Source: Chloroflexota bacterium
GTDB lineage: Bacteria; Chloroflexota; Limnocylindria; P2-11E
NCBI GenBank assembly: GCA_005883625.1
Contig: VBDU01000076.1
Coordinates: 1-64,000 of the forward strand
Direction: 5' to 3'
DNA length: 64,000 bases
This document shows positions 23,287 through 35,490 of this stretch, piece after piece (position 1 is the first letter of the stretch; each line of letters starts with the position of its first letter). The translations under genes were made by a program, and so were the position numbers. The notes under the pieces were generated by a model. The model had not been told where the DNA came from. It was given only the letters and a program-made list of their open reading frames with translations, and made no database searches.

Positions 23287-23338
23287 GGCCTCTCAAGGGA
23301 CCGTGCAGAAGGCCCGGAACTCCTTAGACTTGACCTCG

Positions 23339-23920
<582 letters not shown>

Positions 23921-23923
23921 CCG

Positions 23924-25105
23924 CTGAGCACCGAGACCGGCCTCCGTCGCACGCCCGTCGACCCGTCCACGATCCCGCTTCCCGTCTATGAGGGTGAAGA
24001 GGGGCAGATCGAGGAGCTCATCCTCAACATGGGCCCGCAGCATCCCTCGACGCACGGCGTCCTGCGTCTCGTCCTCAAGCTTGCCGGGGAGAAGATCATC
24101 GAGTGCATCCCGGTGATGGGGTATCTCCACCGCGGCATCGAGAAGATCTTCGAGTGGCGGACCTACCACCAGGGGATCCGCTACGCGGACCAGGCCGACT
24201 ACGTCTCGAACATGCTGAACGAGCACGCGTACGCGGGCGCGATGGAGGCGATCGCCGGGATCGACGTCCCGCGCCGAGCCGAGTTCATCCGTGTGATCGT
24301 CGACGAGATGAGCCGCTGCGCATCGCACCTGGTGTGGCTCGGCACGTACGGTCTCGACGTCGGCGCCACGACCCCGGTGCTCTGGTGCTTCCGGGACCGC
24401 GAGGAGATCCTCGACATGCTCGAGGAGCTCTGCGGCTCGCGGATGAACTTCAACTACTACCGGCCAGGCGGCGTGCTCTACGACCTGCCGCCGGGCTGGC
24501 TCGGGAAGCTGTCGCGGTTCCTCGACCGGTACGAGAAGGACATCACCGAGGACTACGTGACGATCCTCGACCAGAACGAGATCTTCCTCGAGCGGACCGT
24601 GGGCGTCGGCACGATCCCCGCGGACGTGGCCAAGCAGTACGGCGTCACCGGCCCGATGCTCCGCGCGTCCGGCGTGAACTGGGATCTGCGGAGGGACCGG
24701 CCCTACTCGATCTACCCCGAGCTGCGCTCGCTCGCGCCGGTGATCTACGCCGAGGGCGACGCGTACGCGCGCTACCGCGTGCGGCTGGGCGAGATGCGCC
24801 TGGCGATCGCGCTCATCCGCGAGTGCATCGACAAGCTGCCCGGCGGTCCGGTGCGCGCGCGGCTCGGCCACGTGTGGAAATGCCCGAAGGGCGAGGCCTA
24901 CTACACGGTCGAGGGCGCGAAGGGCGAGGTCGGGATCTACATGATCAGCGACGGCCGCAGCCCGAACCCGTTCCGCGCGAAGATGCGCGGGCCGTCTTTC
25001 GTGAACCTGCAGATCCTTCCCTGGCTGCTCCAGGGACGGCTCGTCGCCGACGCCGTCGCGATCCTCGGCTCCATCGACATCGTCCTCGGGGATGTCGACC
25101 GATGA
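23924..25105 (+). CDS. nuoD: NADH-quinone oxidoreductase subunit D (NuoD); start probably CTG
   Basis: NuoD forms the quinone pocket with NuoB. Quinone-site motifs are intact: GPQHPSTHGVLR (the His) and DYVSNMLNEHAY (the Tyr region); the end GSIDIVLGDVDR is the normal C-terminus. The first canonical start, ATG 24029, lies inside the conserved LNMGPQHPSTHG strand and would remove it. The frame is open to CTG 23924, three nt after the nuoB stop, giving an N-terminus STETGLRRTPVDPST. I infer CTG initiation by coupling with nuoB. The hydrogenase-type Cys pairs are absent, so this is a quinone-type subunit. Confidence 0.9.
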   Translation: MSTETGLRRTPVDPSTIPLPVYEGEEGQIEELILNMGPQHPSTHGVLRLVLKLAGEKIIECIPVMGYLHRGIEKIFEWRTYHQGIRYADQADYVSNMLNEHAYAGAMEAIAGIDVPRRAEFIRVIVDEMSRCASHLVWLGTYGLDVGATTPVLWCFRDREEILDMLEELCGSRMNFNYYRPGGVLYDLPPGWLGKLSRFLDRYEKDITEDYVTILDQNEIFLERTVGVGTIPADVAKQYGVTGPMLRASGVNWDLRRDRPYSIYPELRSLAPVIYAEGDAYARYRVRLGEMRLAIALIRECIDKLPGGPVRARLGHVWKCPKGEAYYTVEGAKGEVGIYMISDGRSPNPFRAKMRGPSFVNLQILPWLLQGRLVADAVAILGSIDIVLGDVDR

Positions 25106-25139: not shown

Positions 25140-25859
25140 ATGAGAGGGATCCTGGCGGGACTCGCGCGGACGCTCGAGCACATGCTGCGACCCCGGCCGG
25201 TCACGCGAAAGTACCCGTACGAGAAGCGCGAGCTCCCCGAGCGCAGCCGCGGCCTCATCGCGCTCTTGCTCGAGCCCGAGACGAGCATCTTCAAGTGCGA
25301 GTCCTGCCTCATGTGCGAGAAGGCCTGCCCGCCTCGCGCGATCTCGATTTCGTACCGCTTCAAGAACGGCTTCCGCAAGCGGCCGTCCCTCGCGCCGCGC
25401 GCGTCCTATTACCGCATCCGCATGGTGCAGACCGCCCCGTACGGCGCGCGCCGTCCGATGTCGACCGCGGTCACGACGATCCCGGCGGAGGAAGAGACCC
25501 GGCTCGACCTCTCGCCCGTCCGCCGGATCATCGCCGACACGCCGGAGGGCGCCGACCGTGTCACGCGCGTGCTCTACGCGACGAACGAGGCCTACGGCTA
25601 CCTGCCGTGGTCTGCCGCGGAGCTCATCGCCGCGGAGCTTGGCAAGACGATGACCGACCTGTACACGACGGCGTCGCTCCTCGCGAACTTCCGCGGGGCG
25701 CCCGAGGGCCAGGGGACCGCGGTGCCGCGCGGCGGCCGGAAGTTCACCGGCAACCTCGGGATCGCCGGCGCATGGCCCGAACGGACGCCCGCACCGTCGC
25801 ACGACCGGCTTCACGAGGACGAGGTCCATCACGTGGTCGCGCCGACGTATGCCGGTTGA
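25140..25859 (+). CDS. Truncated NuoI ferredoxin fused to a cluster-less NuoE-like domain
   Basis: Residues 1-95 match the front half of NuoI: GILAGLARTLEHM, VTRKYPYEKRELPERSRG and one [4Fe-4S] motif FKCESCLMCEKACPP (Cys 53, 56, 59, 63). The second NuoI cluster motif is absent; after SYYRIRM the sequence passes into PMSTAVTTIPAEEE and a NuoE-like helical domain (VTRVLYATNEAYGYLP, LIAAELGKTMTDLYTTASLLANFR). The four Cys that bind NuoE's [2Fe-2S] are all missing and the end is short. ATG 25140 has GAAGGG 6 nt upstream; ATG 25092 is an alternative. The fused protein lacks two of the three clusters of its parents. It overlaps nuoF by 4 nt. Confidence 0.8.
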   Translation: MRGILAGLARTLEHMLRPRPVTRKYPYEKRELPERSRGLIALLLEPETSIFKCESCLMCEKACPPRAISISYRFKNGFRKRPSLAPRASYYRIRMVQTAPYGARRPMSTAVTTIPAEEETRLDLSPVRRIIADTPEGADRVTRVLYATNEAYGYLPWSAAELIAAELGKTMTDLYTTASLLANFRGAPEGQGTAVPRGGRKFTGNLGIAGAWPERTPAPSHDRLHEDEVHHVVAPTYAG

Positions 25860-27103
25860 TCGAGGGCCGGGGGACGGCGACGGGCGACCCGTTGCCCGCT
25901 AGCGCCGCGACGCGCCTCCTCGCGGCGAGCGCCGCCGAGGGCGGGGACGTGCGGTCGATCGCTCCCGACGAGCTCATCGCCCGGGTCGAGCGGAGCGGTC
26001 TGCGTGGTCGCGGCGGCGCGGGTTATCCCCTCGCGAAGAAGCTCGCCGCGGTCCGGGCGGCCGTCCCAGCATCGGGACGGGAGCCGCTCGTCGTGGTGAA
26101 CGCGTATGACGCCGATCCGGACAGTCCGTTGTCGCAGACGCTCATCGAGCGCACGCTGCTGCTCGTCGCCAAAGGCGCGATGATCGCCGCCGTCGCCGTC
26201 GGCGCACGCGAAGCCATCATCTACATGCATCCCCGGGCCGAGGCGGCCCGTCGCGCGCTCGAAAAAGAGCTCGGGATGATCGAAGGCTCGCTCGGCGGCG
26301 TGCTGATCTCGATCGCTGTCGGTCCCGGAGGCTTCATGGGCGGCGAGGAGAGCGCGCTCATGAACCTGCTCGAATCGAAGCGCGCGATGGCGCGCCAGCG
26401 TCCGCCGTACCCCGCGGAGAACGGCGTGCAGGCGCGGCCGACGCTCATCGCGAGCGCGGAGACCGTCGCTTGGCTACCGCAGATCGTCGCGCGCGGCGCG
26501 CGCGCGGACGCGAAGCTCGTGTCGGTGACGGGAGCGGTCGCGCGGCCGGGTGTCTACGAGGTCCCGCTCGGGACGACGCTGGGCGGGATCGTCGACGAGG
26601 CCGGCGGCGCGACCGGAGAGCTCAAGGGGCTTCACGTCGGCGGGCCGACGGGCGGCATCCTCGCCGCGGTGCGTGCCGACGTGAAACTGGATTTCGACAC
26701 GCTCAAGGCCGCGGGGACGCACATGGGCTCCGCCCAGGTGCGCGCGATCCCGGCCGGCGTGTGCATCGTGAACGAGGCGGCGCGGCTCTTCGCCTACCTC
26801 GCGAAGGAGAACTGCGCGATCTGCGTGCCTTGCCGCGTCGGGACGAAGCGCGTCCAGGGGATCCTCGAGAGCGCGTACTCCGGGCTGGGCCGGGAGAGCG
26901 ATCTCGCCTGGCTCGACGAGCTGGGGACGCACATGGAGCGCTTCTCGCTGTGCGGCTTCGGCATCACCGCACCCTCGATCCTCCGCACGACGATGCGCGA
27001 GTTCGCCGACGAGTACCGCGCGCACATCGTCGAGCGGCGCTGCCCCACGAACACCTGTTCGCCCGTCCGCTCGCGGCGCTACGAGACCATGACGCAGCCG
27101 TGA
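25856..27103 (+). CDS. nuoF: NuoF-like NADH-binding subunit (divergent)
   Basis: A 415-residue NuoF homologue. Kept features: GLRGRGGAGYPLAKK (FMN loop), GGEESALMNLLESKR, and the [4Fe-4S] N3 ligands NCAICVPCR plus FSLCGFG near the C-terminus. Altered features: the NADESEPG loop that contacts NADH/FMN reads NAYDADPDS, and NNVET reads ASAET. It should still bind FMN and one cluster, but the nucleotide specificity or even the use of NADH is uncertain. TTG 25856 overlaps the previous stop (TTGA). A 199-bp spacer with inverted repeats separates it from the next gene. Confidence 0.85.
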   Translation: MIEGRGTATGDPLPASAATRLLAASAAEGGDVRSIAPDELIARVERSGLRGRGGAGYPLAKKLAAVRAAVPASGREPLVVVNAYDADPDSPLSQTLIERTLLLVAKGAMIAAVAVGAREAIIYMHPRAEAARRALEKELGMIEGSLGGVLISIAVGPGGFMGGEESALMNLLESKRAMARQRPPYPAENGVQARPTLIASAETVAWLPQIVARGARADAKLVSVTGAVARPGVYEVPLGTTLGGIVDEAGGATGELKGLHVGGPTGGILAAVRADVKLDFDTLKAAGTHMGSAQVRAIPAGVCIVNEAARLFAYLAKENCAICVPCRVGTKRVQGILESAYSGLGRESDLAWLDELGTHMERFSLCGFGITAPSILRTTMREFADEYRAHIVERRCPTNTCSPVRSRRYETMTQP

Positions 27104-27302: not shown

Positions 27303-29711
27303 ATGAGCATTCTCGAGCGATACACGCAGCCCGCGGAGCAGCAGATCCCGACGGTCTCGCATCAGGGCGAGATCCCGTCGGGGCAGCCCACGTGCACGAT
27401 CCGGATCGACGGCCAGGAGGTCACCGCGATCCCGGGCGAGGCCATCCTCCGCGCCGCGCAGCGCGCCGGCTTCACCGTGCCCACGCTCTGCGACGACGAG
27501 AAGCTCGCGCCCGCCGCGGCGTGCCGCATGTGCCTCGTCGAGATCGAGGGCTACGACCGGCCGATGCCGTCGTGCCATCTGCCCGTGCAGGCGGGCATGG
27601 TCATCACGCAGGCCTCGGACTCGCTCTTCAAGCTGCGTCGGCAGAACCTCGAGTACATCCTCAGTGACCACAACGCGTACTGCATGCCGCCGTGCCAGAT
27701 CAGCTGCCCGACGCACATCGACATCCCGGGGTACCTCGAGCTCATGGCGAAGGGCCAGCACGTGGAGGCGGCTCGTCTCGTGAAGGAGGTCCTGCCGTTC
27801 CCGTACATGCTCGGCCTCGTCTGCCCGAAGCCCTGCCAGGAGGTCTGCCGGCGCGGGCTCGTCGAGGAAGAGATCGCGATCTGCCAGTGCCACGGCTACA
27901 CGGGCGAGCTCGTCATGGAGATGGACAAGGCCCCGACGCCGTTCCCGCAGGAGCCCGCGACCGGGAAGCGCATCGCCGTGGTCGGCGCGGGCCCGGCCGG
28001 GATGACCTGCGCCTACTACGCGGCGCTCAAGGGTCACGCCGTGACCGTGTTCGACATGATGCAGAAGCAGGGCGGGATCTGCCGCTATGGGATCCCCGAG
28101 TACCGCCTGCCGAAGGTGAAGCTCGACAAGGAGCTCAACTCGGTCTGGCAGCTGCGCGACACGGAGTTCAAGGGCGGGATGATGCTCGGCCGCGACTTTT
28201 CGATCGAGGACCTCTTCACGCAGGGTTACGACGCCGTGTTCCTCGGCATCGGCGCATGGCGGTCGAACGAGCTGCGCATCCCCGGCGAGGACCTGCCGGG
28301 CGTCATCGAGGCGATCAGCTACCTGCGGCAGAACGCCGAAGGCGACCCGGTGCCCGTCGGCGCCGGCATGCGCGTGGTCGTGGTCGGCGGCGGCTTCACC
28401 ACGTTCGACTGCGCGCGCACGTCACGCCGCCTCGGCGCGAACGTGACCGTCGTTTACCGACGCTCGCGCAAGGAGATGGGCGCGCATTACAGCGAGGTCG
28501 ACGACGCCGAGCACGAGGGCATCAAGCTCGAGTTCTACGCGTCGCCCGTCCGGATCGTCGACAAGGACGGACGCGTTGGCGGAATCGAGTTCCAGCGCAT
28601 GGCGCTCGGCGAGCCGGACGCCTCCGGCCGCCGCCGTCCGGTGCCGATCGAGGGCTCGAACTTCACGATCGACTGCGACGTAGTCATTCCCGCGATCGGC
28701 CAGCTGCCGGTCCTCGACTTCTTCGACCGCGAACAGGCCGTCCGCAAGACCAAGCGCGAGACGATCATCACCAACGGCGCGCTCATGACCGACCGGCCTG
28801 GCGTCTTCGCCGGCGGCGACGCGCAGATGGGGACGCGCACCGTCATCGAGTGCGTCGCGCAGGGCAAGCTCGCGGCGAAGGCGATCGACCGGTACCTCGC
28901 AGGCCACGACATGGCGAAGGTCGCCCAAGAGATCGCCGAAGAGGAGAAGGTCCCGGAGCTCATCGACATCGTCCCGTACAAGCCCGAGGAGCCGCAGGTC
29001 CGCATGCCGATGCTCCCGTTCACCGAGCGAGTGCAGAGCTTCCAGGTCATCGAGAACGGCTACGACAAGGCCGGCGCCGAGAAGGAGGCCGCGCGCTGCC
29101 TCCAGTGCGTGTGCCCCGACGTCGGGCGCTGCCATCTCCAGCGGCTCTCGCTCGAGCACGGACTGACCGACAACCGCTTCCACCGCGCGGAGCCCGTCGA
29201 CTACCACGACTACGAGTACGACTTCAGCCACGACTTCATCCTTCGCGACCTCAACAAGTGCATCAACTGCACCCAGTGCGTCCGTATCTGCCGCGACGTC
29301 ATCGGCGCGAACTGCTACGGACTCATGGGTGGCGGCTACGACTCGATCGTCACGACGCCGTGGAACGTGTCGCTCAGCTATACCGACTGCGTCTCGTGCG
29401 GGGCCTGCGCGGAGACCTGCCCGACGGGCGCGCTCATGATGCGCGAGCGCGACCTGCAGACGTACGAGCTCGACGTCGTGCGCTGCATCTACTGCGGTGA
29501 CTGCGTCGAGGTGTGCCCGCACGGCGCGCTCGGCGAGACGCCGAACTTCGAGCTCTCGACCTACCAGCGGTTCGGCACGACCGTGCTCGCGAAGGAAGAG
29601 CTCGCGGTCGCGCGGAGCTGGAAGCCATCGGAGCGGATCCCGCTCGACGGCCACGAGGACATGCGCCCACCGGAGATCCGCCCGCCCGGCCCGCCGCGCT
29701 GGGGCGCGTAA
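27303..29711 (+). CDS. NuoG-type ferredoxin + GltD-type flavoprotein + polyferredoxin fusion
   Basis: An 802-residue electron-transfer protein. Residues 30-100: plant-type [2Fe-2S] domain as at the start of NuoG (Cys 63, 74, 77, 91). Residues ~115-190: GltD-type N-terminal cluster region (CMPPCQISCPTHIDIPGYL, VCPKPCQEVC). Residues ~215-560: two Rossmann folds, FAD site VVGAGPAGMTCAYY and NAD(P)H site VVVGGGFTTFDCARTSR, ending AGGDAQMGTRTVIECVAQG. Residues ~640-760: three cluster motifs KCINCTQCVRIC, DCVSCGACAETCP and RCIYCGDCVEVCP. It probably replaces NuoG and brings a second flavin/NAD(P)H site to the NuoBD module. Related fusions occur in NADH:ferredoxin:NADP-type and formate dehydrogenase systems. 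Confidence 0.88.
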   Translation: MSILERYTQPAEQQIPTVSHQGEIPSGQPTCTIRIDGQEVTAIPGEAILRAAQRAGFTVPTLCDDEKLAPAAACRMCLVEIEGYDRPMPSCHLPVQAGMVITQASDSLFKLRRQNLEYILSDHNAYCMPPCQISCPTHIDIPGYLELMAKGQHVEAARLVKEVLPFPYMLGLVCPKPCQEVCRRGLVEEEIAICQCHGYTGELVMEMDKAPTPFPQEPATGKRIAVVGAGPAGMTCAYYAALKGHAVTVFDMMQKQGGICRYGIPEYRLPKVKLDKELNSVWQLRDTEFKGGMMLGRDFSIEDLFTQGYDAVFLGIGAWRSNELRIPGEDLPGVIEAISYLRQNAEGDPVPVGAGMRVVVVGGGFTTFDCARTSRRLGANVTVVYRRSRKEMGAHYSEVDDAEHEGIKLEFYASPVRIVDKDGRVGGIEFQRMALGEPDASGRRRPVPIEGSNFTIDCDVVIPAIGQLPVLDFFDREQAVRKTKRETIITNGALMTDRPGVFAGGDAQMGTRTVIECVAQGKLAAKAIDRYLAGHDMAKVAQEIAEEEKVPELIDIVPYKPEEPQVRMPMLPFTERVQSFQVIENGYDKAGAEKEAARCLQCVCPDVGRCHLQRLSLEHGLTDNRFHRAEPVDYHDYEYDFSHDFILRDLNKCINCTQCVRICRDVIGANCYGLMGGGYDSIVTTPWNVSLSYTDCVSCGACAETCPTGALMMRERDLQTYELDVVRCIYCGDCVEVCPHGALGETPNFELSTYQRFGTTVLAKEELAVARSWKPSERIPLDGHEDMRPPEIRPPGPPRWGA

Positions 29712-29829: not shown

Positions 29830-30525
29830 CTAGGAGACGAAAGCGCAGATCGCCTGGAATGTGATGAGTACGGGGCCCATGCCGGTGTTCTTCACAGCAA
29901 CGGTCCAGAAGGTGTCGCTGACCGCGAAGGATCTTGTGATAACCGTAACCGTCGCGTCGCTTGTGTCGACGCCTCCGGAGAGGACCTTCTTGCCTATCGG
30001 GCAAGCTACCCCGCCTGAGACTGTGGAGCCGGCTGGAAGCGTAAAGGGCATTCCGCTGTTGACGATCTCGTAGCCCGACACGCCAGCCGGACCCTGTTGG
30101 CCGGTTGGACCTTCGGCGCCGGTCGGGCCTTGCGCGCCTGTCGGACCAGCCGGACCCTGTGGGCCTGTCGGACCTGCTGGCCCCTGTGGACCCTGAGGAC
30201 CTGCTGGACCTGGAACGCCAGCGCCGCCGGTCGGGCCTGTCGGACCCTGTGGCCCAGCCGGCCCTGCTGGACCAGCCGGACCCGCGGGACCCGTCGGGCC
30301 CGCTGTTCCGGGCCCATTCCACTCGACCGCCACGTCTCCGGCCTTGCACGACTCAGGCGAGGTCGGGCTGACGGTCACGTTGTAGAGGTTGCCGAGCTTA
30401 TTGAGGCATGCGGAGAACGTGCCGGTGGTGGCGCCGTATGCGACGAGCGCCGCGCCGAGCCCGACCGCAAGGGCGACGACCATCGCGAGAGCGATGAGTC
30501 TCCTGGAATTGCGAAACGGAGCCAA
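29830..30525 (-). CDS. Secreted collagen-like protein
   Basis: A 231-residue protein: N-terminal hydrophobic signal or anchor ([20 protein letters not shown]), a ~45-residue globular part with two Cys, about 26 uninterrupted Gly-X-Y triplets (GPT, GPA, GPQ repeats, residues ~72-150) and a ~75-residue C-terminal beta domain ([17 protein letters not shown] ... FQAICAFVS). Such proteins trimerise into collagen triple helices on the cell surface; the C-terminal domain is the probable trimerisation or adhesion head. The start is TTG 30525 because AGGAGGAG lies 5 nt upstream. A TTGACA (complement of 30691-30696) lies far upstream without a convincing -10. Confidence 0.88.
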
Positions 30526-30759: not shown

Positions 30760-33035
30760 TCACACCAGGCTGATGTCGACCGATTGGGACTGCGTCAGGC
30801 TCGCGTTCACGATGTCCGTGGCGCTCACCGTCTGGCTGGGTGGGGTCCATAGCGTGACCGAGAACTGGTGCGTCCCGCCATCCGCGGCGGCGAAGGTGTA
30901 GTCGGCGGGCAGGACGACCGCGGGCACCGGGTCGCTCGTCGCGAAGTGCACGGTCCCGCGGTAGCCCGTCGCCACGTTGCCGTACGGGTCCTTGAGCGTG
31001 ACGGCCACGGTTGTCGGTACCGGTGATCGTCTGCGAGCCGGCCTTGATGAGCGTCGCGGAGAAAGTGCCCTGGCCGTTCGTGAGCGTCGAGTCGGCCGGG
31101 ATTACGACCCCCGCCGAGGTGTCGGTGCTCGTGAAGTGGACCGTGCCCGCGTACGCGGTGTCGGTGTTCCCATAGGCGTCCTGGGCGCTGACGCCAAAGG
31201 AGAAGCTCGCGCCGGCCGTGGGCGTGGCCGAGCTCGAGAGGGTGACCTTCGTCGCGCTCGCCGCGCGGACCGTGAGGGTGAGGCCGCCCGTGATGGTCGC
31301 GGTGACGGTGTCGGTCGCGGTGACCGTCTGCGAGCCGGCCTTGATGAGCGTCGCGGAGAACGTGCCCTGGCCGTTACCGAGCGTGGTGTCGGCCGGGAGC
31401 AGGACCCCGAGGGAGGTGTCGCTGCTGGTGAAGTGCACGGTGCCGGCGTACGTCGTGTCGGTCGCGCCGGACTGGTCCTGAGCCGTCACGGTGAACGAGA
31501 ACGCCGCTCCCGCGGTCGGCGTCGCGGCGCTCGACACGACGAGCCTGGTCGCGCTCGGGGGCTCCCGCCGTCATGAGGGTGGCCGAGAAGGTCCCCTGGC
31601 CATTGGTGAGCGTCGAGTCAGCGGGGAGGACGACGCCCGCCGCGGCGTCACTGCTCGTGAAGTGCACCCTGCCTCCATACGCGGGGTCGGTCTTGCCCGA
31701 CCGGTCCTGGGCGGTCACCGTGAAGGAGAAGCTCGTGCCGGCGGTCGGCGTCGACGTGGAGCTCGTCAGCTGCAGCGTCGGCGGCGACGGCGCCGCGTAC
31801 ACGCTCGCCAGCATCGTGTCGGCCCAGAGCCTGCGCATGCCGAAGTAGCCCTGGTCGCTCGGGTGCACGCAGTCGGCGGAGATCTGGCTTTGGTTGGCTT
31901 GGAAGTACGCCCAGAGATCAGGACCGCGAATGATCTGCGGGTACGCCGCGTACAGCGCGTCGATCTTCTGATTGAGCACCGGCACGTTCGCGAGGATGTT
32001 GCTCGTGCAGCCCCACGGGATCCTGGGGACGATGGGGATCTTCCCGGCGGCGAGCACCGCTTGGATCATGACGACGTAGTTGTCGTAGAAGGCCGCCGGG
32101 CTCACGTTCCAGCCGGCGTCGTTCGTGCCGTACGCCACGCCGGCGTAGCGGCCGGGGAAGAGCGCGAGCCAGCCGCTCAGGCTCTTCGCTCCGTCGGCGC
32201 TCAGGGTCCCGCCGATGGAACCCGCCTCATAGGCCGGGAAGTTGCTCGGATTCGCCGCGTTGATGAGCTGGGCCCAGGTCCCCGTTCCGCCGGCGTTCGA
32301 CAGCGACTGGTGGGCCATCGCGCCTTCGGTGATCGAGTCGCCGTAGAAGATCCAGTCGTCTTGAAGACCGCCGCGCGCGTCATGGACGTCCATGTTCAGG
32401 AAGACGCCCTTCCAGCCCGGCGACCCATCGGAGGCGGTGACGCGCATGCGAAGCCAGCCGTAGCCGGTCAGGTCCACGAGATGCTGCCGCGAGTGGAGGA
32501 CGTTCCCGCTCACGGTGGCGAGGGTGACCCACCCGGAGCTCGGGAGCGCTCCGCCCGGAGCCGCGTTCCCTTGGAGCGTGTATGACGATGGGATCGCGTA
32601 GCCGACCCACTTGCAGCACGGATGAACGCCGACGTAGGTGTGGTCGTACTGCATCGTCTGCGGGTCGTTGTACCAAAGGACGAGGACCTGGCCGCGGTTA
32701 GCCGCGGGAACCGCGGACAGGTCGTAGGCGAGATAGATCGGCGCGTTACTGGACGGCGTCACGCACGCCCCCCACTGCGTGTCGTAGTCGGCGTCGTCCG
32801 CGAAGCTCGCCGGCAGGGCCCCACCGCAGGTGTCGTTGGTGTACGCGGGGGCGTTGCGACTGATGACCGGCAGGGGGCTCAGGGCGCTCGGCTGGCTCCC
32901 CGGGACCATCGCGCGCTCGTCGACCGAGGCGTGCGCCGAGGCCGTGCCAAAGCTCACGGGCGCGCAGAGGCCGACCACCGCTGCCGCGATGATCCGCACC
33001 CACACCCACGGGCTCGAACGTCGAGCCGCCACCAA
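30760..33035 (-). pseudogene. SGNH/GDSL hydrolase with Ig-like modules, broken by two internal deletions
   Basis: The N-terminal ~440 residues are intact: signal peptide (IIAAAVVGLCAPVSFGTASAHA) and an SGNH esterase with IFYGDSITEG (Ser), GTNDAGW (Asn) and DCVHPSDQGYFG (Asp/His). Tandem Ig-like modules follow, but the frame changes near 31565 (after SATLMTAGA, into SATRLVVSSAATPTAG) and again near 31012 (after TITGTDN, into VAVTLKDPYGNVATG). At each point the middle of a module is missing compared with the two sister genes, so both are deletions, not single-base errors. Either real decay or assembly collapse of repeats. The C-terminal module matches the sisters' shared terminal module. Confidence 0.8.
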
Positions 33036-33056
33036 GCTGATTTGACGACCTGCCCG

Positions 33057-33158
33057 TTGAGGCGGCGTGCGGGGGCGCCGGGAGGTTTTCGAGCGATGGC
33101 GTACGGGGCGGGTCGAGCGGGATCCGCTCTTAACGGCGGGTCAACGCTCGCTCAATCG
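33057..33158. promoter_or_regulatory. TTGAGGCG / triple-TCAA element, copy A
   Basis: TTGAGGCG at 33057, then boxes TTAA 33130, TCAA 33141 and TCAA 33152, exactly 11 bp apart; motif-to-box distance 73. It lies just upstream of the SGNH gene start (33035, minus). A GAGCGG-gat-CCGCTC hairpin lies inside. Confidence 0.6.
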
Positions 33159-33225
33159 GCCGCTTCCCGATCTCGCTCCGGACGTGCGAGAGAGCCCGAG
33201 CGGCGCGATGGTCAGCTCGCGGGCG

Positions 33226-35373
33226 TCACATCAGGCCGATGTTGACCCACTTGAACTGGGTCAGGCTCGCGTTCACCGTGTCCGTCGCGCTGACGGTCTG
33301 GCTCGGGGGCGTCCAGAGCCTGACCTGGAAGCCGCGCACGCCCCCGTCGGCGGCGGTGAACGTGTAATCGGCCGGCAGGGCGACCGTCGGCAGCGGGTCG
33401 CTCGTCGCGAAGTGGACGGTGCCGCGATAGCCGGTCGCGACGTTGCCGTACTGGTCCTTGAGCGTGACGGTCACGTTGAAGGCCTGCCCGGCCTTCGCGC
33501 CGCCCGGAGCGTCGAGCACCAGGCTCGCCGCGTTTGCCGCGCGGACCGTCAGGCCGAGCGTGCCGGTGATCGTCGCCGTCACCTTGTCGGTCCCGGTGAT
33601 CGTCTGCGAGCCGGCCCTGATGAGCGTCGCGGAGAAGGCGCCCTGGCCGTTCAGGAGCGTCGAGTCGGCCGGGAGGACGACCCCCGCCGAGCTGTCGCTG
33701 CTCGTGAAGTGCACCGTGCCCGCGTAGGCCGTGTCCGTGTTGCCGAACTGGTCCTGCGCCGACACCGTGAAGGAGAAGCTGCTCCCGGCGGTCGGCGTGG
33801 CCGTGCTGGCCAGGGCGAGCCCGCTCGCCGGCGCCGCGCGGACGGTCAGGCCGAGCGTGCCGATGATCGTCGCTGTCGCCGTGTCCGTGGCGGTGATCGT
33901 CTGCGGGCCGGCCCTGATGAGCGTCGCGGAGAAGCTGCCTTGACCGCTCGCGAGCGTCGAATTCGCTGGCAGGACGACCCCTGCGGAGCTGTCGGTGCCA
34001 GCGAAGTGCGCGGTGCCCGCGAACGCGAGGTCGGTGTTCCCGAACTGGTCCTGGGCCGTGACGGTGAAGCTGAAGCTCGTTCCCGCGACGGGCGTGGCGC
34101 TGCTCGCAAGGACGAACCGGCTCGCCGGCGCCGCGGTCACGGAGACGGTCACGGTCGTGGAAAGCGCGTTGGCGCGGTCGGCGGCGGTGATCGTCTGCGC
34201 GCCGGCCTTGACGAGCGTCGCCGAGAACGTGCCCTGACCGCTGGTCAGCGCCGCGTCCGGAGGCAGCACGACGCCGCTCGAGGTGTCAGTGCTCGTGAAG
34301 TGCACCGTCCCCGTGTACCAGGTCGCGGTCGTGCCGTCGGCGTTCTTCGCGGTCACGCCGACCAGGAAGGCGTCCCCGGCGCGCGCGGCGGAGGGCACCG
34401 ACACGTCGAGCCCGGCCGGCGTCGGCGGCGCTCCGCCACCGTAGACGCAGGGCGCGCCCGCCGGCTGCTGGTAGGCGCGCATGTGCCCGTCATAGCCGTC
34501 CCTGAGCCAGAACACGGGCACGCCGTAGCTCAGGTTGTCGCACTCGAGATCCTGCGCACTGGTGCCGATGTACGGGTTGTAGGCGTACGACGCGACCTTG
34601 CCGCCCGTCTTGGTGTACTCGAAGTAGTGGCTGCATCCGGCCGCCGTGACGAAGAGATGGCTTCCGCCGACCGTCACGCCGCTGCTCTGGCTGTACCCGC
34701 ATTCCGGGACCATGTCGTTCGGCGCGACGTTGACATCGATGAACGGTGTCGCCGCGACCAGCGCGGCGGTGCCCTGGGCGTCGGCGTAGGTGTGGAAATG
34801 GTAGATGCGCGTGCCGGCGTCGCGGCTGAACCAGATCGTGTCGTCCGACCGGTCGTAGGCGACCTTCGTCTCGTTGGGAAAGTCGCCTGCCGGCACGTAG
34901 CCAGGTAGGTCGTTCGCCGTGTCGATCGTGAACGCCAGCCCCGCGGCACCCGACTTCCTGAGCAGGTAGATCGACAGACCGTCGCCGCTCACCGCCCAAA
35001 AGGCGTCGCGGCCCGCGTCGTACGACAGGGTCATGATCCCCGTACTGGCGCCCGTGATGGGTACGTCGACGTGGCCGGACGCGGTGTACGGTCCGCCCGC
35101 CGGCGGCACGTCGACGCGGTGGAGGACGGAGCCGCCGTAGTCGACGTGATAGAGGAAGTGCCCGTCGAACGCGACGCTCGGTGACGTGGCGTTGGGGTAC
35201 TCGGCGACGATCAGGTCGGCGACGAGGTCCCCGGGCGCTGCGGCCGCGGACCGTGCGCCCTGCCACGCGGTCGCGAGCGTAAGCAAGGCCGACAGGAGAA
35301 GGAACGCGACGATCCGCAGACCAAGGCACTTCGCCGGCGAATGCGGCATGCGGCTCGTCGTCACGCGATACAT
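33226..35373 (-). CDS. Secreted surface protein with beta-propeller-like N-domain and Ig-like modules
   Basis: About 715 residues: signal peptide (LGLRIVAFLLLSALLTLATA, cut near SAAAAPGD), a ~290-residue domain with repeated SYDAGRDAFWAVSGDG / AYDRSDDTIWFSRDAG style strands that looks like a beta-propeller, then four Ig-like modules (~95 residues each; motif TYAGTVHFTSSD.S.GVVLP) and a terminal module ending VNASLTQFKWVNIGLM. The terminal module is nearly the same in the gene at 42495. Probably an adhesin or matrix protein. The start is uncertain: ATG 35373 is preferred, ATG 35349 and GTG 35424 are possible. Element D lies 16-117 bp upstream. Confidence 0.75.
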   Translation of the reverse strand: MYRVTTSRMPHSPAKCLGLRIVAFLLLSALLTLATAWQGARSAAAAPGDLVADLIVAEYPNATSPSVAFDGHFLYHVDYGGSVLHRVDVPPAGGPYTASGHVDVPITGASTGIMTLSYDAGRDAFWAVSGDGLSIYLLRKSGAAGLAFTIDTANDLPGYVPAGDFPNETKVAYDRSDDTIWFSRDAGTRIYHFHTYADAQGTAALVAATPFIDVNVAPNDMVPECGYSQSSGVTVGGSHLFVTAAGCSHYFEYTKTGGKVASYAYNPYIGTSAQDLECDNLSYGVPVFWLRDGYDGHMRAYQQPAGAPCVYGGGAPPTPAGLDVSVPSAARAGDAFLVGVTAKNADGTTATWYTGTVHFTSTDTSSGVVLPPDAALTSGQGTFSATLVKAGAQTITAADRANALSTTVTVSVTAAPASRFVLASSATPVAGTSFSFTVTAQDQFGNTDLAFAGTAHFAGTDSSAGVVLPANSTLASGQGSFSATLIRAGPQTITATDTATATIIGTLGLTVRAAPASGLALASTATPTAGSSFSFTVSAQDQFGNTDTAYAGTVHFTSSDSSAGVVLPADSTLLNGQGAFSATLIRAGSQTITGTDKVTATITGTLGLTVRAANAASLVLDAPGGAKAGQAFNVTVTLKDQYGNVATGYRGTVHFATSDPLPTVALPADYTFTAADGGVRGFQVRLWTPPSQTVSATDTVNASLTQFKWVNIGLM

Positions 35374-35388
35374 GCCACCGCGGGGGCA

Positions 35389-35490
35389 TTGAGGCGTCGT
35401 GCAGGACGGGATGACTTCCTCCACGCCGCGCGCCTGGACGCCTCGTGGAGGGCATCCGGCTTCAAGCCGAGGTCAACGAGGACTCAATCA
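35389..35490. promoter_or_regulatory. TTGAGGCG / triple-TCAA element, copy D
   Basis: TTGAGGCG at 35389; boxes TCAA at 35462, 35473 and 35484 (11-bp period, all perfect); motif-to-box distance 73. ATGAC lies 22 bp after the first motif. An 8-bp inverted repeat CCTCCACG / CGTGGAGG (35418-35425, 35444-35451) lies inside. It sits between the divergent surface-protein and MidA-type genes. Confidence 0.6.

Follow-up and report, generated by a model that had tools for sequence, protein, structure and literature searches.

An apparently divided NuoI and a GltD-type flavin domain in a candidate complex I variant of Chloroflexota

In complex I as it is usually understood, NADH is the electron donor, FMN in NuoF is the point of entry and a fixed chain of clusters follows. 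The 64,000-nucleotide stretch of Chloroflexota DNA analyzed here (the window) contains a nuo gene cluster in which one gene, IE, joins the N-terminal half of NuoI to the helical half of NuoE and carries a single cluster motif. A preliminary description of IE concluded that NuoI had lost one of its two [4Fe-4S] clusters and that electron transfer must be rerouted. The locus therefore raises two questions: where is the remainder of NuoI, and where would electrons enter such a complex? The features that bear on both are collected in Table 1, where GX denotes the gene that follows nuoF.

Table 1. Positions in the window of the nuo genes and of the domains and motifs discussed in the text
Feature	Position	Strand	Remarks
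NuoB (carries N2)	23303..23920	+	205 aa; NCBIfam NuoB subfamily, 245.7 bits (cut-off 116)
NuoD	24029..25105	+	PF00346, 5e-86; frame open further upstream, start may be earlier
IE, NuoI N-terminal half + NuoE helical half	25140..25859	+	239 aa, frame open
NuoI N-terminal half of IE, residues 1-105	25140..25454	+	Chloroflexota NuoI model 9-101 of 167, 44.3 bits
Sole cluster motif of IE, CESCLMCEKAC (NuoI motif 1)	25296..25328	+	four Cys invariant, 52/52 rows
NuoE helical domain of IE, residues 128-191	25497..25709	+	PF01257 positions 2-65
NuoF, degenerate NADH/FMN loop	25856..27103	+	TIGR01959, 229.5 bits (cut-off 558.65); TTG start inferred
NuoF loop NAYDADPDS, replaces N-x-D-E-x-[ED]-P-G	26099..26125	+	motif comparison
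GX, NuoG N-terminus + GltD/NfnB FAD/NAD(P)H domain + NuoG-type dicluster + NuoI C-terminal half	27303..29711	+	802 aa
GX [2Fe-2S] domain (N1b-like)	27393..27614	+	PF13510, 1.2e-18
GX GltD/NfnB-like FAD + NAD(P)H domain	27687..28925	+	residues 129-541 aligned to solved NfnB-type/GltD chains
GX YRRSRKEM	28455-28478	+	inside GltD/NfnB-like domain
GX dicluster, M1 CINCTQCVRIC (29259-29291) + M2 CVSCGACAETC (29388-29420)	29259..29420	+	Fer4_Nqo3 match
NuoI C-terminal half on GX	29445..29627	+	NuoI model 89-148 of 167, 43.0 bits; TIGR01971 69-111 of 121
GX M3 CIYCGDCVEVC, then NuoI tail	29484-29516	+	third ferredoxin motif

The IE gene and its conservation

Family models bear out the view of IE as a NuoI/NuoE fusion. 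Its first ~100 residues match positions 1-66 of the 121 in TIGR01971, the curated NuoI model (E 1.7e-10, below the curated cut-off), and in the same chain the NuoE helical domain matches PF01257, a NuoE family model of 145 positions, with E 4e-4. The thioredoxin half of NuoE is wholly missing and none of the four NuoE cluster cysteines is present in the window protein, so that the NuoE [2Fe-2S] site is gone, as had been proposed; the four cysteines are also lacking in 31 of 52 aligned rows. The C-terminal ~50 residues form a lineage-specific tail. There is no stop within the 239 residues, and the terminal TGA (25857-25859) overlaps the TTG at 25856 that opens the NuoF frame.

Among the 61 genomes nearest to the window, 52 encode a match to IE (E<=0.001), with identities of 69-91% for the main matches, which belong to the window's order, and of 27-33% in other families of the class. 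The four motif cysteines are not the only invariant positions of the NuoI half across the 52 aligned rows. Five pairwise comparisons give pN/pS ratios of 0.23-0.44 for the gene as a whole, and in each of them the NuoI half has the lowest value. Because it is conserved in relatives, with invariant cysteines and such pN/pS values, IE is a maintained gene, which agrees with the earlier judgment that the fusion is not simple decay. No relative that was read has a full NuoI and a separate NuoE at this locus.

Structure prediction is informative for one part of the protein. In single-chain AlphaFold2 models the NuoE part of IE reaches a pLDDT of about 70-96, and the NuoI half stays below 50. The best Foldseek matches of the IE model are NuoE-family chains, none of them at E<=0.001, and they support the NuoE part only. 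Residues 550-802 of GX, modeled in the same way, also fall below 50, and this region includes the known M1/M2 dicluster. The low pLDDT therefore argues neither for nor against a split of NuoI, and the proposal that the NuoI half cannot fold alone was dropped.

NuoI sequence on IE and GX

The idea that NuoI had lost one [4Fe-4S] cluster is contradicted by GX, encoded in the same gene cluster, which carries at its C-terminus the second NuoI motif and the NuoI-specific tail. The N-terminus of GX is NuoG-like, with a [2Fe-2S] domain and a His-Cys region. In the GltD/NfnB-like domain the FAD-site glycines are kept, and the YRR of the motif in Table 1 and K390 are invariant in 42 of 42 rows; together with the likeness to StnC, the YRR motif suggests that GX probably prefers NADPH. 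M1 and M2 are the usual pair of NuoG, HydA and StnC, and the same pair is found in StnC chains. The third motif, M3, follows M2 at a spacing of 21 residues, and GX stops at residue 802, after the NuoI half.

We built a NuoI model for Chloroflexota from 31 of the phylum's NuoI proteins, picked for having two motifs. IE and GX cover complementary parts of it and, together, most of TIGR01971, which places the split immediately ahead of NuoI motif 2. Neither protein passes as NuoI, the TIGR01971 scores of IE (40.5 bits) and GX (67.5 bits) both falling below the cut-off of 113.05, and the M1/M2 region of GX scores only 4.9 bits against the Chloroflexota model. When aligned to E. coli NuoI, the end of GX extends some 30 residues beyond the last cysteine. 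Both halves contain a short stretch ahead of the motif, YYRIRMVQ in IE and TYELDVVR in GX. IE has one four-cysteine motif (52/52 rows), GX has three (42/42) and canonical NuoI has two (31/31, in a set itself selected by that pattern). NuoI is thus not encoded here as a single chain with two [4Fe-4S] motifs; one motif is on IE and the other on GX. In canonical NuoI, the ligands of each of the clusters N6a and N6b are three cysteines of one motif and the last cysteine of the other. At the level of sequence, the division of NuoI across two chains is well supported, and the assembly of N6a and N6b in trans from IE and GX would be its counterpart in the protein.

The two halves occur together. In a profile search IE was found in 37 of 151 genomes of the phylum, cleanly separated from the remainder: in the weakest case, G084, where IE is in two pieces, these score 164.9 and 126.6 bits, against 77.8 bits for the next-best match outside the 37 genomes. 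Near-full GX (796 bits or more) is present in 36 of the 151, all of them with IE; in the 37th IE genome, G040, the contig ends after IE and GX is not covered. Neither gene is present in the other 114. Because related genomes are not independent, such counts are not probabilities. By group, IE is found in 18 of the 19 genomes of the window's class and in 19 of the 132 outside it, and NuoI above the TIGR01971 cut-off has a distribution of 0/19 versus 100/132. The class member that lacks both IE and GX, G041, is 91% complete and matches NuoH only weakly; complex I may have been lost from this genome.

We also scanned genome contigs with one query. In the best 80 of 156 confirmed loci, the GX end lies on the expected strand in 55, all 53 GX ends that reach the cysteines have three motifs, and a pattern search detected no two-motif NuoI. 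The StnC-type protein of another member of the phylum, G175, has M1 and M2 only, and that genome has no full-length IE. Copy number varies at a few loci. G092 has a second IE copy (L214), with no GX within the 16 kb read there, and two tandem, very similar GX genes are found at L199 (6303-11326) and at L210, one of the copies in L199 being broken into two frames.

Gene context and electron entry

In relatives of the same class the genes form a single operon of 13, A-B-C-D-H-IE-F-GX-J-K-L-M-N; some of them are identified there by their position, and individual loci may show fewer than 13. The nuo set of the window's order is in two places, with B, D, IE, F and GX at the window locus. In the window genome, contig C123 carries A, C, H, K, L and N, and further frames there are taken as J and M from their position. 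The N2 cysteines are visible by eye in the NuoB translation. NuoD aligns over its full length, with one gap, with solved NuoD/NdhH chains, and by eye it keeps the residues at what we take to be the Q-site positions. A membrane arm, NuoB with N2 and NuoD with the quinone site are thus all encoded in the window genome. It has one NuoD, one NuoH (on C123), one NuoF and no NuoI above cut-off among eight TIGR01971 matches (best E 4.2e-12), so that the window locus represents the only complex I of this 92.5% complete draft. Downstream, the nuo cluster adjoins a minus-strand gene for a collagen-like repeat protein (29830-30525), and large repeated-domain proteins, probably surface proteins, are encoded on the same strand at 31374-35424. 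A close relative, G019, a family member outside the 151-genome sample, has an extra canonical nuo operon (L050), in which NuoI is full-length and the NADH loop of NuoF is normal.

Outside the class the context is different. Canonical NuoI coexists with IE and GX in 18 of 19 genomes, and by gene calls eight loci (L193, L194, L196-L200 and L202) contain NuoB-IE-NuoF-GX without NuoD nearby. At L201, IE, NuoF and GX are called and NuoB is not, and G111 (L195) has A-B-C-D-H-IE-F-GX. Since canonical NuoI coexists with it and most of these loci have no NuoD nearby, the module may be a separate enzyme in these genomes. In a GX tree with a midpoint root and long branches, the window's order groups with the outside genomes, apart from the other families of the class; transfer and unequal rates are both possible explanations.

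The NuoF of the window does not conform to the NADH/FMN loop consensus of NADH-oxidizing complex I. The loop Asp is missing in 149 of 152 NuoF matches, drawn from 151 loci of which some overlap, and none of the three matches that keep it is linked to IE. The loop Glu is kept in 34 of the 152, several NuoF proteins of families f3-f5 being among them. In Aquifex NuoF, according to the available text of PMC6560083, the loop Glu E95 and the next acidic residue, E97, touch NADH via water. The NuoF N3 motif is also altered in the class's other families, where T, A or S stands in place of its second Cys (76 of 146 matches); at L041, L044 and other f3-f5 loci, the motif reads CGKTIPCR or CGKAVPCR. No second NuoF with a normal NADH loop was detected in the window genome, which has one PF01512 match in total. 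The window contig does encode a type II NADH dehydrogenase-like protein (L221), whose best solved matches are non-electrogenic NADH dehydrogenases and which receives no NADH dehydrogenase name from NCBIfam, and PntB is present in 53 of the 61 relatives and in 27 of 27 of the better genomes. NADH would therefore have another route to the quinone pool, and NADPH could be linked to the proton gradient, an arrangement that would suit an NADPH-fed complex I without proving one.

The sequences point to a split NuoI with complementary coverage of the NuoI model, co-occurring halves, a changed NuoF loop, a GltD domain and, elsewhere in the genome, a membrane arm, and we think it likely that these genes encode a complex I variant in which NuoI is rebuilt from two chains and electrons enter at the GX flavin. 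IE and GX would meet at the usual NuoI position and jointly supply the eight cysteines for N6a and N6b, which would make the chain to N2 in NuoB and the quinone in NuoD complete. The rerouting envisaged in the preliminary description would then need to be recast: if the two halves assemble, no detour around a missing N6 cluster is required, the motif being on GX, but electron input has more likely been rerouted, given the degenerate NuoF loop and the GX flavin. The entry point would move from NuoF to the GX site for FAD and NAD(P)H, the latter probably being NADPH, and electrons would pass from the GX FAD through the GX [4Fe-4S] clusters and the split NuoI to N2. NuoF and NuoE would no longer oxidize NADH and would be kept as structural remnants. 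More tentatively, it is possible that this is a pumping complex I fed by NADPH through a GltD/NfnB-type FAD, with its N6 clusters assembled across two chains, and that the cassette outside the class is an exchangeable second input arm that docks on the cell's ordinary complex I.

Several other explanations have to be weighed against this variant. One is that NuoI lost a cluster outright and that the remaining one bridges the chain alone. IE by itself does have one motif, but in every complete case the other motif and the NuoI tail are on GX, and a single CxxCxxCxxxC motif normally serves two neighboring clusters, with three ligands for one and a fourth for the other, so that a lone motif would be a poor one-cluster site; we consider this explanation highly improbable. 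It is unlikely, to a lesser degree, that each half motif holds its own [4Fe-4S] cluster, or that M2 and M3 of GX form a pair in cis, like an ordinary ferredoxin, with IE paired to something else, either of which would give a different cluster order. M2 and M3 lie close enough to each other to form a cis ferredoxin, and the single-chain models, with low pLDDT in both halves, do not decide the matter. However, since M1 and M2 already form the dicluster in StnC-type homologs, a pair formed by M2 and M3 would leave both M1 and IE without a partner, and NuoI-like sequence continues past the last cysteine of M3.

The gene context bears on a further possibility, that NuoB, IE, NuoF and GX constitute a separate NAD(P)H oxidoreductase rather than the arm of a complex I. 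The NuoD-lacking cassettes and the coexisting canonical NuoI outside the class would suit such an enzyme, but the genes lie within the 13-gene operon in the class relatives and a single NuoD, a single NuoF and no NuoI above cut-off are encoded in the window genome, which makes this explanation rather improbable. Assembly artefact or gene decay, for which draft contigs and the poorly conserved NuoE tail might be cited, has a negligible probability: the frame is intact in many genomes, and conservation across independent assemblies, the invariant cysteines and the selection indicated by pN/pS refute it.

If the complex I variant with a divided NuoI is real, most of a bacterial class from soils and lakes has apparently swapped its NADH entry and cut a core ferredoxin subunit while retaining the complex. 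The NADH module of a pumping enzyme would be exchangeable for an NAD(P)H module of the NfnB/StnC type, and a two-cluster ferredoxin could be assembled from two chains. The annotation "NADH dehydrogenase" would be misleading for such genomes, and the evolution of the complex I input module would become testable through a natural experiment.

Comparison with known systems

In a limited literature search, including the available text of PMC10482914, PMC8357420, PMC6560083 and PMC5736913, we came across neither a split NuoI nor a complex I with a GltD fusion. Against the canonical 14-subunit complex I (NuoA-N), the set described here has matches to NuoA, B, D, H, K, L and N, further frames occupy the positions of NuoC, J and M, and NuoB and NuoD align well. 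They differ in that NuoI is in two pieces, NuoE lacks its thioredoxin half and the NADH/FMN loop of NuoF is changed. In comparison with canonical NuoG, GX lacks the molybdopterin-like part and has a GltD domain inserted.

GX resembles StnC of the Stn transhydrogenase (8oh5_C, 9bov_A): the [2Fe-2S] domain, the GltD/NfnB FAD-NADPH domain and the M1 and M2 dicluster occur in GX in identical order, and residues 33-733 align to StnC-type chains with E 1.8e-165 (9bov_A) and 4e-158. The domain order of GX is thus that of the NuoG and GltD fusion that characterizes StnC, with FAD and NADPH binding predicted. According to the available text of PMC10482914, StnC itself binds FAD and NADPH and has in C1-C2 a cluster branch that is a remnant without function; the side of GX that matches this branch would serve as the exit to NuoI and N2. 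StnC-type chains have M1 and M2 without M3, whereas GX lacks the FdhF-like C-terminal domain of StnC, ends in the NuoI half and is linked to NuoB and NuoD. The FMN/NAD site and StnA [2Fe-2S] site of StnAB, the bifurcating partner of StnC, have no counterpart here, the NuoF loop being changed and the window IE lacking the NuoE cysteines. A StnB-like protein encoded beside a StnC-type gene (L203) keeps the loop Asp, unlike the NuoF partner of GX.

The likeness to NfnAB, through the GltD-like FAD/NADPH fold of NfnB/NfnL (5jca_L, 4.8e-81), covers only one domain of GX, and no bifurcation partner was seen here. Complex I-like enzymes of 11 subunits exist without NuoEFG, as stated in the available text of PMC11238625. 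They resemble the present variant in that input is not via NuoEF, and they differ from it in that remnants of NuoE, NuoF and NuoG remain here and a new flavin domain has been built in.
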